The notes below the pieces were generated by a model. The model was not told the origin of the DNA, searched no databases, and was given only the letters and a program-made list of their open reading frames with translations. From contig JAAYMN010000010.1 in assembly GCA_012521345.1 (NCBI GenBank), forward strand, positions 1-35,330: 35,330 nucleotides of DNA. Direction: 5' to 3'. This document shows, one piece after another, positions 2,020 through 7,078 of this stretch; position 1 is the stretch's first letter, and every line of letters begins with the position of its first letter. This DNA comes from Bacillota bacterium. Its GTDB lineage: Bacteria; Bacillota; Dethiobacteria; Dethiobacterales; Dethiobacteraceae. Made by a program: the position numbers and the translations under genes.

Positions 2020-3768
2020 ATTGCGAAAAGAATCAAGAAAATTCTGATTACTGCCCTTTTAATTCTTAGTTTTTCGGCAGTTTTTGCTACTCCCTCCGCG
2101 GCGGCGGCCGGAGCACCTAAAAACATAATTATTATGATTGGCGACGGGATGGGCTTCAACCAGGTCCTGGCGGCCGATTACTACCTGTACGGCAAAGCCG
2201 ATGCCAATCCCTTCGCCAATTTCCCGGTCCGCCTGGCCATGAGTACATATTCACTTGGCGACAGTCCGGGACCGGAGGATGATGCGGCGCAGGTGTACAG
2301 CCCGTCTCTCTACGGCAGGTTCGACGAATGGTGCATTAATGTGACGGAATCGTCAGCCGCCGCCACGGCCATGTCAACAGGTAAAAAATGTGCCAACCCG
2401 TCCATCGCCGTGGCACCGGACGGCAGGCTCCTCAGGCACACGTCCCAGGATTTCGAGGAGCAGGGCAAGTCGACAGGCGTTGTAACGTCCGTGCCCATTA
2501 CCCACGCCACGCCGGCCGGTTTTGTCGCACACAACGCCAAGCGCAGTGCATATGCCGCCATTGCGCAAGAAATGATTAAAGAAAGCGCCACTGACGTTAT
2601 TATGGGCTGCGGCCACCCGCTTTACAGCGACGACAACGAATTGTTTGCTGAACCAAACTACGGCTATATCCCCGAGGATCTCTGGCTCGATATGTCCGAC
2701 GGGGAGATCATGGGAGCCGATGCCAACCATGACGGCACTCCCGATCTCTGGACGTTTATTGAGACCAAGGAACAGTTTGAGGCGCTGCTTTCCGGTCCCG
2801 TTCCGGACAGGGTGCTTGGCGTTGCCCGCGCCTGGCAGACGCTGCAATGCCTGCGGGTAGAGGAAGACTGGGCCAAGCCGGCGTACACAACACCGTTCAA
2901 TACAGGCGTTCCGACTTTAGAAACAATGGTAAAAGGAGCTTTACGTGTCCTGAGTAAAAATCCCAAGGGCTTCTTCCTGATGATTGAAGGCAGCGCCCAG
3001 GAATGGGCGGGGCACTACAGCCAGCCGGGCCGCCTGATAGAAGAGCAGGAAGACTTCTATAACACTGTTCAGGCTGTTATCGACTGGATTGAAACCAACA
3101 GCAGCTGGGATGAAACGCTTCTCATCGTCACAGCCGACCACGAAACCGGCCTCCTTTCAGGCGCCGAGGGCATCCTCTCCCCGGTTGTCAACAACAGCAA
3201 AGGCGTCATGCCGACCATGTATTTCCATGTTGGCACCACCTACGGCATCCCCTGGCACAGCAGTCAGCTTGTCCCGTTTTATGCCAAGGGGGCAGGGGCG
3301 GAACTGTATTTTGCCGTCGCCGACCAGTATGACCCGTACAGGGGCTGGTATCTTGACAACACGGAAATCTCCGCTGTCATCCGCGAGCTGTGCGGCATTA
3401 AAAATACAAAATGTCAGGATATACTTGCCGCCAAGGAATTGGGGCTCGTGCCGGCAGGTCTGCAAAACTATGCGGCCGGGATCACCCGTGAAAACTTCTG
3501 CATACTGGCATATGAGCTGCTGCACAAAGCCGCGGGCACTGAAATCATCACACCGCATTACCAGAACGATCCAGATCCCTTCACGGACCATACGTCATAT
3601 ATCAGTTATAAAATCTTTACGCTATATAAGCTGGGCATTGTCAACGGTGTAGGCGAAAATAAATTTGCCCCCGACAAAATTTTGACCCGTGAGGAAGCGG
3701 CAACAATTCTCAACCGGATTGCAGCATATCTTGGCAGCATATCTTGGTGTATCCATCCCGCAGTCTAA
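2020..3768 (+). CDS. Secreted SLH-domain alkaline phosphatase, frame-disrupted
   Basis: This is a PhoA-superfamily alkaline phosphatase that would hydrolyse phosphomonoesters outside the cell. Visible motifs are the metal-binding IIIMIGDGMG near the mature N-terminus, the nucleophile region ESSAAATAMSTG, PITHATPAGF, and the distal metal site ADHETG. Part of one SLH (surface-layer anchoring) domain and a complete second one follow the enzyme. The signal peptide (KRIKKILITALLILSFSAVFATPSA) begins upstream of the first ATG (2134), so that ATG cannot be the true start. In this frame the only codon next to the AAGGAAGG ribosome site is ATT at 2020. A TTG at 2021 would fit if one A were missing in the following A-run. 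The frame ends early at 3768 because of a 13-bp tandem duplication at 3721-3746. The product as read lacks its last SLH domain. Confidence 0.8.
   Translation: MAKRIKKILITALLILSFSAVFATPSAAAAGAPKNIIIMIGDGMGFNQVLAADYYLYGKADANPFANFPVRLAMSTYSLGDSPGPEDDAAQVYSPSLYGRFDEWCINVTESSAAATAMSTGKKCANPSIAVAPDGRLLRHTSQDFEEQGKSTGVVTSVPITHATPAGFVAHNAKRSAYAAIAQEMIKESATDVIMGCGHPLYSDDNELFAEPNYGYIPEDLWLDMSDGEIMGADANHDGTPDLWTFIETKEQFEALLSGPVPDRVLGVARAWQTLQCLRVEEDWAKPAYTTPFNTGVPTLETMVKGALRVLSKNPKGFFLMIEGSAQEWAGHYSQPGRLIEEQEDFYNTVQAVIDWIETNSSWDETLLIVTADHETGLLSGAEGILSPVVNNSKGVMPTMYFHVGTTYGIPWHSSQLVPFYAKGAGAELYFAVADQYDPYRGWYLDNTEISAVIRELCGIKNTKCQDILAAKELGLVPAGLQNYAAGITRENFCILAYELLHKAAGTEIITPHYQNDPDPFTDHTSYISYKIFTLYKLGIVNGVGENKFAPDKILTREEAATILNRIAAYLGSISWCIHPAV
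3721..3746 (+). repeat. 13-bp tandem duplication that shifts the phosphatase frame
   Basis: The unit GCAGCATATCTTG occurs twice in direct tandem (3721-3733 and 3734-3746). Thirteen is not a multiple of three, so the second copy moves the reading frame. Removing one copy joins the upstream SLH domain in frame to a third SLH domain that ends at 3943. Confidence 0.9.
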
Positions 3769-3943
3769 TGTTACATTCAACGATGCCTCCTCCATCTCGC
3801 CCTGGGCTGCCGACGCCGTGAAAAACATGGCTGCACTTGGTATTATGACGGGCACCGGCGGCAACAACTTCTCCCCCAAGGCTCCATATACCGGCTATCA
3901 GGCAATCCTCACCATGCTGCGCATGTATAATGCAGTCAAATAA
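3747..3943 (+). pseudogene. Displaced third SLH domain of the alkaline phosphatase
   Basis: Read in the frame that results from deleting one copy of the 13-bp repeat, this stretch continues the phosphatase with GVSIPQSNVTFNDASSISPW, then a helix AADAVKNMAALGIMTGTGGN and a second helix, then a stop at 3943. The FxDxxxxxPWAxxAVxxMxxLGI pattern is a standard SLH repeat. It has no start or ribosome site of its own, so it is the cut-off C-terminus and not a separate gene. Confidence 0.8.
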
Positions 3944-4051: not shown

Positions 4052-4081
4052 ATTTGCCCATCGGCAAATTAATAGTATAAT
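4052..4081 (+). promoter_or_regulatory. mgtE promoter with overlapping inverted repeat
   Basis: TTGCCC (4054-4059) and TATAAT (4076-4081) are 16 bases apart and drive the M-box transcript. The -35 sits inside an inverted repeat, ATTTGCC-CATC-GGCAAAT (4052-4069), with 7-bp perfect arms. This placement suits a repressor site. Which regulator binds is unknown. Confidence 0.55.
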
Positions 4082-4093
4082 AAAATATAGAAA

Positions 4094-4293
4094 CTCTGTT
4101 AGGTGAGGCTACTATACAAACATACGCTACTACCCTGAAACATCGAGAGATGCCAAAGGGTGAACAGGTAACATCGGCTTAAGGTGTTACCTAATGTAGC
4201 TGGGTTTCCCTACGTTGTATAGTGCTAAAGCTTTACGAGAGGGGTATATTTTTTTGTATTGTTCCCTCACCTACTAATAGGTTGAGGGTTTTT
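4094..4293 (+). ncRNA. M-box magnesium riboswitch with transcription terminator
   Basis: The core matches the M-box (ykoK leader) class: TTAGGTGAGGCTACTATAC, the TACGCTACTACCC segment, a middle hairpin with AACATCGGCTTAAGGTGTTACC, AATGTAGCTGGG, and the closing GTGCTAAAGCTTTACGAGAG. P1 is CTCT (from 4094) with AGAG (to about 4241). A terminator stem (CCCTCACCTA 4264-4273 with 4278-4288) and TTTTT follow. GAGGGG at 4238-4243 can pair either into P1 or with CCCTC at 4264-4268. High Mg2+ is therefore predicted to favour P1 and termination, and low Mg2+ antitermination. The gene served is mgtE, the expected target of this class. Confidence 0.92.
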
Positions 4294-4321
4294 CAGTTTA
4301 TACTATGACGGAGGTGATTGT

Positions 4322-4429
4322 ATGGACCCTGGACCAGGAAGACAATCTGACCCGGAATTAAAAGGGCTTGGGAGCAGGCAGTCCTACATTCACTTCTATC
4401 GCACATGCCTCCTCCCGCACATATTGTGA
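4322..4429 (+). CDS. 35-residue leader ORF between the M-box and mgtE
   Basis: A short ORF with a strong ribosome site (GGAGGTGATT, 6-8 bases before ATG) lies after the riboswitch terminator and ends 35 bases before the mgtE ATG. The peptide begins MDPGPGRQSDPELKGLG and ends in a Cys/Leu/His segment. I know of no homologous protein family. The Asp-Pro/Gly-Pro start recalls the enterobacterial leader peptide MgtL (Met-Glu-Pro-Asp-Pro start), which destabilises ribosomes at low Mg2+. That similarity is of type and context, not proven homology. Codons 28-31 contain GCCTCCT, complementary to the mgtE ribosome site, so translation of the leader probably affects mgtE translation. It would be made only when the riboswitch allows read-through. 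Confidence 0.5.
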   Translation: MDPGPGRQSDPELKGLGSRQSYIHFYRTCLLPHIL

Positions 4430-4455
4430 TGTGACCACAAAGCAGAAAAGGAGGC
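4407..4455 (+). promoter_or_regulatory. Anti-Shine-Dalgarno hairpin in front of mgtE
   Basis: GCCTCCT (4407-4413, inside the leader ORF) is perfectly complementary to AGGAGGC (4449-4455), the mgtE ribosome site. A small inner stem (CACAT 4418-4422 with ATGTG 4429-4433) may help close it. Ribosomes on the last codons of the leader would open the hairpin, so mgtE translation should depend on leader translation. Confidence 0.5.
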
Positions 4456-5903: not shown

Positions 5904-6166
5904 TTAGTTTTCTACCCTCTGCTTTCCCGGAGCGGAATCTGAGCAACCGGGTTCTGCTCCCTTTAAATCCTCAACCAGGGAAACAATAGGATAGTAGTCG
6001 TTATAATGCTTCTGTAAAAACATGGCATTGCGCTTTTTAAACAACCTTTCCGCAAGCTTGTCGGCAATGGGGAGCAGCAGACGCTCATGGGCGCATAAGA
6101 CAGGCGACACCAGGTCGATGCTGCCGGTTGCCTGTTTATTCAGGCAGCCGCAGAAATGGTTGCAGC
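5904..6166 (-). pseudogene. Displaced C-terminus of the radical SAM/SPASM gene
   Basis: Shifted by one base relative to 6140-7078, this frame reads RCNHFCGCLNKQATG, then ...VLCAHERLLLPIADKLAERLF and a polar tail to the stop at 5904. RCNxxCGC is the second half of the Cys cluster started by CRECAV in the upstream frame. One extra C near 6165-6170 would give CRECAVRSRCNHFCGC and a protein of about 390 residues. There is no ribosome site for independent translation. Confidence 0.75.
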
Positions 6167-7078
6167 GCTTCTCACAGCACACTCGCGGCAGGTTTCCTTT
6201 TCTTTTTCATTTTGCCGGTATAATTGTTCCCGTTTTTTCTCATTGACTCCCGCATAGACGTCGCCGAGAGCGTAGTTGTCATCGCCGACAAACTGCACGC
6301 AAGGGTACAGACGGCCGTCAGGCGCCACTGAAAGCTGCTTCATGCCCAGTTCGCACCGTTCCCGGCAATATGTTTTATGGTTGATGTGCGAGCTTATTTT
6401 AACCTCAAAAGGGCTTAAGTAAAATTTTTCCTCGGCCAGCGTCAGCCGGTAGTAAAAAGCAGCCAGTCTCCGGTACTCCCCGGCCAGCGTTGCTAACTCA
6501 TCTTCCTGCCACGCCGCAGCGTAGTTTAAGGAGCAGATCAGATAACGAAAGCCCAGCCGGTAAAGGTGCTCCACCGACTCGGCAAAATATTGTGCCGTAT
6601 CAGGATTAACGGTCATGAGCGCCGGGGCGTAGGGACGGGCGGCAAGCAGCATTTGTGCCTTCTCCGCAAGCGTTTTATATGTGCCCCGGCCTTTTATGTC
6701 ACGGCGGTATCTGTCATGGGCGGCTTGAATGCCGTCATGACTTAAGGCGATAAAGAGATTGTTTCTGCGCGAGTACTCAAGAAAAGCTTCATCCAAAAGC
6801 AGACCGTTTGTCGTCACTTTATAGTGAAAATAACAACCGGCCCGCTTTTCTTTCCAGTTCGCATAAGCTATGGTTTCGTAAATCAATTCCTTGTACAAAA
6901 GAGGCTCGCCGCCGAAAAAAATAATACCGGCAGAATCGCCTCTGGGAGTCAGAGCGGCGGCCAAATCGACGGCCCGGTAGGCGGTGGCAAAACTCATGGA
7001 CTGCAGCCTGGAGCGGTTTACATAACAGTAAGCGCAGGCCATGTTGCAGTCATTGGTTAAATGCAAGGTAAAATGCAA
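6140..7078 (-). CDS. Radical SAM/SPASM-domain enzyme, frameshifted
   Basis: The N-terminus has the radical SAM [4Fe-4S] motif CNMACAYC (about residues 11-18), followed by FFGGEPLL, the SAM-binding GGEP motif. Near residues 235-270 it has the start of a SPASM auxiliary-cluster region (CRERCELGMKQLSVAPDGRLYPCVQF), then CRECAV. SPASM enzymes typically modify a peptide or protein side chain, as sulfatase maturases and RiPP maturases do. The closest general type is anaerobic sulfatase-maturase-like, but no sulfatase is present. The frame ends prematurely at 6140 in a run of Ala codons. The remaining Cys ligands lie in the next frame. The gene starts 15 bases after the lipoprotein-like gene 7093-7893 and is surely cotranscribed with it, which makes that protein the prime candidate substrate or partner. 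Confidence 0.85.
   Translation of the reverse strand: MHFTLHLTNDCNMACAYCYVNRSRLQSMSFATAYRAVDLAAALTPRGDSAGIIFFGGEPLLYKELIYETIAYANWKEKRAGCYFHYKVTTNGLLLDEAFLEYSRRNNLFIALSHDGIQAAHDRYRRDIKGRGTYKTLAEKAQMLLAARPYAPALMTVNPDTAQYFAESVEHLYRLGFRYLICSLNYAAAWQEDELATLAGEYRRLAAFYYRLTLAEEKFYLSPFEVKISSHINHKTYCRERCELGMKQLSVAPDGRLYPCVQFVGDDNYALGDVYAGVNEKKREQLYRQNEKEKETCRECAVRSAATISAAA

Follow-up and report, generated by a model that had tools for sequence, protein, structure and literature searches.

Why should an mRNA that already carries a magnesium riboswitch also carry a short open reading frame (ORF) between that riboswitch and its transporter gene? The question arises from a 35,330-nucleotide stretch of DNA from a Bacillota bacterium, here called the window, whose plus strand holds, in this order, an M-box, an intrinsic terminator, a 35-codon ORF and mgtE (Table 1). 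The earlier note on this DNA had described the ORF as lying behind a strong ribosome site and likened it to the enterobacterial MgtL leader. The ORF is present as described, with a 9-nt Shine-Dalgarno (SD) sequence, and its two neighbors are recognized by Rfam and Pfam.

The aptamer lies far above the 44-bit gathering score of RF00380 and is joined to a terminator/antiterminator platform ahead of mgtE, as is usual for this family. In the terminator, 4264-4273 and 4278-4288 form a stem that runs into TTTTT; its 5′ arm CCTCACCTA (4265-4273) is the exact complement of TAGGTGAGG (4100-4108), the antiterminator arrangement typical of M-boxes. The hexamers just upstream are likely the promoter, a scan match by itself being no proof of function. 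Within the organism's fragmented assembly (130 contigs, 97% complete), searches return one M-box, one MgtE and no match to CorA, and the M-box/leader/mgtE transcript is the sole such gene found. An Rfam search of the leader region gives no family besides the M-box, no Pfam family matches the leader peptide, and no plasmid carrying the leader was found.

Table 1. Features of the mgtE leader and gene in the window; pairings between RNA segments are predictions.
Feature	Position	Strand	Basis or remark
Putative promoter, TTGCCC-16-nt spacer-TATAAT	4054..4081	+	Consensus scan, 10/12 matches; sigma-A-like; just 5′ of M-box
M-box (ykoK leader) Mg2+ riboswitch aptamer	4088..4250	+	Rfam RF00380, 156.6 bits, E 3.6e-36
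Antiterminator strand TAGGTGAGG in 5′ strand of aptamer P1	4100..4108	+	Sequence itself; complementary to 4265-4273
Riboswitch intrinsic terminator CCCTCACCTA / TAGGTTGAGGG + TTTTT	4264..4293	+	Pairs mostly kept in three relatives
RNA segment 1: leader SD, start and first codons	4307..4328	+	Fold, conserved pairs; pairs with 3′ part of segment 2 (4378-4400)
Leader-ORF SD GGAGGTGAT	4310..4318	+	9-nt match to anti-SD complement; invariant in close relatives
Leader ORF, 35 codons, ATG start, MDPGPGRQSDPELKGLGSRQSYIHFYRTCLLPHIL (MDPGPG...)	4322..4429	+	
Conserved M-[DE]-x-x-P element, leader codons 2-5	4325-4336	+	
RNA segment 2	4370..4400	+	GGGAGCAGGCA (4370-4380) pairs with segment 3; GTCCTACATTCACTTCTATC with segment 1
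RNA segment 3: TGCCTCCTCCC, anti-SD within end of leader ORF	4406..4416	+	Invariant in four species; partner is segment 2 or mgtE SD
RNA segment 4: mgtE SD AAGGAGGC	4448..4455	+	
mgtE, Mg2+ channel, 446 aa	4465..5805	+	Pfam PF01769/PF03448/PF00571; MgtE_N, CBS and MgtE domains

Two neighboring genes deserve brief mention. Near its end, the ORF at 2134-3768, alkaline-phosphatase-like by eye and with S-layer-type repeats, is frameshifted by a 13-bp tandem duplication at 3721-3746 (GCAGCATATCTTG twice), and its C-terminus resumes in another frame at 3689-3943; the duplication reflects a recent mutation or else faulty assembly. On the minus strand and convergent with mgtE is a radical-SAM-like ORF (6140-7078) that has a CxxxCxYC-like motif and is rich in cysteine at its C-terminus.

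The three loci nearest by MgtE identity (L032, 95%; L033, 86%; L034, 84%) each hold an M-box, a terminator and an SD-led MDPGP ORF at an equal distance from mgtE. Scanned without regard to motif, the regions upstream of 80 related mgtE genes yielded 118 SD-preceded ORFs, 45 of which start M[DE]xxP, compared with none of 134 controls (reverse-strand 0/22, far-upstream 0/72, downstream 0/40); these counts ignore kinship and cover many families. An acidic residue occupies position 2 in 46% of the upstream ORFs (0-10% in controls) and proline position 5 in 42% (3-8%). The spacing is also fixed, as an acidic second residue is paired with Pro5 45 times, with Pro4 never and with Pro6 once (45/54 vs. 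5/64 for Pro5, Fisher p 8e-18). Since MDPGP is kept in the three nearest relatives and the start is enriched over the controls, the window ORF is, on this comparison, more than chance. Conservation of a short ORF with an Asp/Glu-Pro start had been set beforehand as the test on which the proposal could fail, and the proposal survives it by a large margin.

What is conserved within the window region is confined to the peptide's first residues and five blocks of RNA. Between the window and L034, the reading frame across the later RNA blocks differs, and leaders range from 13 to more than 60 residues with no common C-terminus. Codon usage points the same way. Among 79 distinct M[DE]xxP leaders, Asp2 is encoded by GAT (39) or GAC (32), all four codons are used for Pro5 and likewise for Gly4, and Ser3 is drawn from both TCN and AGY. 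Across 20 groups of close relatives, pN/pS rises from 0.12 in codons 2-5 to 0.69 in codons 6-9 and 0.96 in codons 10-20, the lowest value being somewhat flattered as the groups were chosen partly by motif. The purifying selection on leader codons that the earlier note had proposed to look for is thus borne out, and the freedom of synonymous codons at Asp2 and Pro5 shows, as far as sequence can, that selection on codons 2-5 acts at the amino-acid level. Taken together, the pN/pS gradient, the codon data and the difference in frame indicate that residues 1-5 are kept for the peptide they form, and that any importance of the remainder of the ORF lies in its RNA. The best reading is that the conserved information consists of an M-[DE]-[small]-[small]-P start and an RNA switch, with the other residues as filler.

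In the folding model, the five invariant blocks form three mutually exclusive helices in the window. The computed probability that the mgtE SD is unpaired is 0.15 on a ribosome-free leader, 0.67-0.69 with a ribosome at codons 1-5, 0.49-0.70 at codons 7-11 and 0.15 again at codons 13-23, while a ribosome at the stop codon leaves the SD open. L032 and L034 are predicted to switch as the window does, less sharply, and L033 stays closed throughout. Across 89 leaders, which are not phylogenetically independent, a ribosome at codon 5 changes opening of the gene SD by +0.118, compared with -0.018 in shuffles of the sequence from codon 6 to the gene SD (p 8e-8). The gene SD is also more closed than in the shuffles when the leader is empty (p 8e-5) and when a ribosome stands in mid-ORF (p 2e-5). 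An opening above 0.1 is found in only about 39 of the 89, so the remaining leaders may have other outputs. The region is computed to fold more favorably than its shuffles (z -2.3), and a covariation test on the four close species finds the helices invariant with almost no covariation, two pairs of helix 1:2 being broken in L033. The sequence and the folding model support a predicted RNA switch that would convert early ribosome trouble into mgtE expression.

The proposed course of events has two stages. Control of transcription by Mg2+ is known for the M-box aptamer family. High Mg2+ would fold the M-box and stop the transcript at 4264-4293, whereas low Mg2+ would allow read-through, and ribosomes would then initiate at the strong leader SD. 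With adequate Mg2+, they would clear the Asp/Pro codons and cover 4370-4380, leaving 4406-4416 to pair with the mgtE SD and keeping mgtE translation low. At low Mg2+, the nascent fMet-Asp-Pro-Gly-Pro would slow or shed the ribosome. Faltering ribosomes would sit on segment 1 and seldom on segment 2, so that segments 2 and 3 could pair and free the mgtE SD. After complete drop-off helix 1:2 could re-form, and pausing or repeated initiation may outweigh release. We infer that the ORF is translated, that its peptide causes ribosomes to pause or destabilize, that Mg2+ sets how often this happens, and that mgtE expression rises as a result. By analogy with the enterobacterial leaders, ribosome destabilization would be the means by which the peptide senses Mg2+; MDPGP has one acidic residue and is a weaker motif than the EPDP of MgtL.

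Is the leader then an accessory of the riboswitch? RF00380 scores above the family cut-off in 119 of 349 Bacillota genomes, and 58 of 110 M-box loci examined (the window and 109 others) hold a leader ORF whose second residue is acidic and which has two or more D/E/P among residues 2-6. Several sub-types occur at these loci (MDxGP, MDxDP, MDDPYPG, MDDPDAD, MEYDDWD, MDSPHSS), ahead of mgtE, PRC-type mgtE-like genes or corA, with MDGDSS as a further one; they have only D/E/P chemistry in common, which a physico-chemical effect would predict. Most of the 80 related mgtE loci have no M-box, and 53 of the 80 have a leader as defined above (acidic second residue, two or more D/E/P). That many carriers lack an M-box argues that the leader peptide is independent of the riboswitch and may be a sensor in its own right rather than its accessory, the sensing of Mg2+ itself being suggested by analogy. 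Of 83 mgtE genes sampled evenly over the phylum, 24 are preceded by the strict motif and 43 by an acidic/Pro start; for corA loci the counts are 7 and 12 of 29, several of the acidic/Pro ORFs lying far upstream and probably reflecting chance. The earlier note had suggested that this transcript may combine a riboswitch with a nascent-chain Mg2+ sensor. Conservation and the computed switch support that reading, but the motif is not specific to M-boxes and also stands before corA. The finding is larger than first stated, and comparison of sequences lends its interpretation good support.

A blind search of 200 genomes with a strict DNA pattern gave raw counts near chance, the informative hits being those with uORF geometry (15-50 aa and no more than 200 nt from the next gene). 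Eight of nine such matches precede Mg2+ transporters, the remaining one a symporter. Seven of the eight are confirmed by Pfam (three CorA, four MgtE-type), and the eighth is MgtE-like and truncated in its locus (L241). For four of them (L238, L239, L245, L250), no M-box is reported at the site, with filters that can lose weak matches. We attribute to chance the short-ORF matches before genes for other functions (L221, aromatic exporter; L231, symporter; L235, FliP). Leader peptides starting Met-Asp/Glu-x-x-Pro ahead of Mg2+-transporter genes are thus, by these surveys, widespread in Bacillota, with the window ORF as one case, and ribosome faltering on them at low Mg2+ probably switches the transporter on.

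Individual loci show how the arrangement varies. At L039, which has no M-box, a strong SD precedes a MEDGPG leader lying 121 nt ahead of mgtE, the element standing alone. L035 and L036 have variant leaders 5′ of mgtE (MNTDTDSWP and MGTDSDSWP) with Asp at 4 and 6 and Pro at 9, retaining the acidic chemistry at altered spacing, and a long helix joins the leader-ORF region to the mgtE SD. In several complete genomes of one genus (L209, L211 and L212, from genomes G238, G188 and G352), an M-box is followed by an MDSGPVS(K/R)QDW leader and a PRC/CBS MgtE-like gene. At L055, a fluoride riboswitch (crcB motif, 3782-3855) lies downstream of mgtE on the same strand.

Among described systems, MgtL (Met-Glu-Pro-Asp-Pro) sheds ribosomes at EPDP when Mg2+ is low, turning mgtA on (PMC11282234). 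The start of MgtL, from Escherichia coli and Salmonella, itself fits M-[DE]-x-x-P, but it has more acidic and proline residues, no M-box, and acts through Rho-dependent transcription termination rather than a sequestered mgtE SD. With mgtE as its gene and the mgtE SD as its output site, the window leader stands outside MgtL proper, as MgtL-like in its working and not an orthologue. Salmonella mgtQ requires Asp2 and Glu5, and frees the mgtB ribosome site by exchanging helices 1:2 and 3:4 for 2:3 (PMC8092293). The window shares with it a short ORF, immediately ahead of an Mg2+ transporter, that has Asp2 and one more acidic codon, the same helix topology, and, here by computation, release of the transporter SD by early ribosome failure. 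MgtQ differs in having eight codons, in lying between mgtC and mgtB under PhoP with no riboswitch, and in carrying Glu5 where the Bacillota leaders have Pro5; there is no sequence homology, and phylum and transporter are other. What the window has of the MgtL/MgtQ type is a short SD-led ORF in an Mg2+-transporter leader, selected acidic and proline residues within the first five codons, and alternative structures that depend on ribosome position, the last by computation and not in all relatives. CorL of E. coli and Salmonella is an Mg2+-responsive uORF before corA, its translation inverse to corA expression (PMC11552253), but it is Rho-dependent, enterobacterial and free of an M-box.

A classical M-box (RF00380) likewise has a complete aptamer, terminator and antiterminator 5′ of mgtE, but ends there, whereas the window adds a predicted translational stage that is present elsewhere without an M-box. 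The M-boxes of M. tuberculosis pe20/rv1535 are followed by conserved uORFs (uORF2/Rv1805A) of unknown role (PMC12810186). Alike are the small ORF after an M-box, a conserved proline-containing N-terminus, and switching among SD, anti-SD and anti-anti-SD; in Mycobacterium, to which the system is confined, the uORF is instead the regulated product, the M-box itself is translational and the proline is at position 7. The window peptide, with Pro at 3, 5 and 11, has none at 7 and is no Rv1805A, which we compared by its description (PMC12810186). The earlier note's statement that no M-box locus with such a leader had been described must be narrowed by these uORFs, and holds insofar as none of them is an acidic/Pro leader to which sensing has been ascribed. 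The mgtE motif SRC-65-1, a structured mgtE leader that includes the SD, is a riboswitch candidate confined to Thioalkalivibrio with no leader ORF described (PMC11109978); this motif and a 26-genome motif survey were checked and differ from the window element. The window leader is no orthologue of MgtL, CorL, MgtQ or Rv1805A, and in its proposed working is like the first three. Our literature search, with most subscription journals outside its scope and an earlier report possible, found no report of such Bacillota leaders.

The modeled RNA switch would respond to a pause of any origin, and the leader could be a true attenuator sensing translation capacity (EF-P/YfmR-type factors, Pro-tRNA charging or ribosome quality), with Mg2+ acting via the M-box or indirectly. 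In these leaders Gly, Ser, Asp or Val stands ahead of Pro5. In B. subtilis without EF-P, ribosomes stall at Asp-Pro repeats, and YfmR relieves the stalling (PMC11381351). A proline or tRNA sensor would, however, be expected to have Pro runs, whereas one proline and one acidic residue are conserved, and the tie to MgtE and CorA, which are unrelated in fold, fits Mg2+ better; capacity sensing seems to us rather unlikely. It is improbable that the leader merely raises or couples basal mgtE translation through reinitiation, with no sensing, since specific N-terminal residues would be needless and leader stop and mgtE start are 35 nt apart in the window, even though the stop codon of some leaders lies only a few bases from the start of the gene.

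Two further explanations were weighed. A functional small protein, for example a transporter regulator like MgtS or MgtR, would account for the conserved SD, start and N-terminus, and has a parallel in the conserved uORF product, of unknown role, under mycobacterial M-boxes (PMC12810186). The frame shifts over the RNA blocks and the neutral 3′ part of the ORF led us to reject it as very improbable, and the variable length, lack of a common C-terminus and lack of a Pfam match also speak against it. Slimmer still is the chance of a purely RNA element, SD-like and structured, with an incidental ORF. Segments 1-4 are indeed invariant among close species and folding is better than in shuffles, but the amino acids stay the same despite changes at third positions and even between Ser codon boxes, on which grounds this reading was rejected, and the D/E-P start recurs across the phylum with unrelated downstream RNA. 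We therefore favor, as fairly probable, the view that the ORF encodes a regulatory peptide akin to MgtL and MgtQ and adds a second Mg2+ control to an mRNA that already has one. Elements of this kind would act on both mgtE and corA throughout Bacillota, whether or not an M-box is present. On this best reading, the M-box gates transcription and the nascent chain gates translation.

We give about even chances to the wider claim that nascent-chain Mg2+ sensing by acidic/Pro starts is phylum-wide in Bacillota, serves both mgtE and corA, is often riboswitch-free and follows the same M-[DE]-x-x-P grammar as enterobacterial MgtL. If true, bacteria in general would sense Mg2+ through the ribosome itself, with the M-box as just one layer above it. 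Leaders that destabilize ribosomes in response to Mg2+ were formerly known from a few enterobacterial loci; the same residue chemistry now appears before two unrelated families of Mg2+ transporters, in many Bacillota families and partly under a riboswitch. This poses a testable question, whether these bacteria read Mg2+ via ribosomes as well as an aptamer and how both divide the range, and offers about a hundred natural variants for learning which early nascent chains destabilize ribosomes. The regions upstream of mgtE in many genomes would gain a regulatory ORF.
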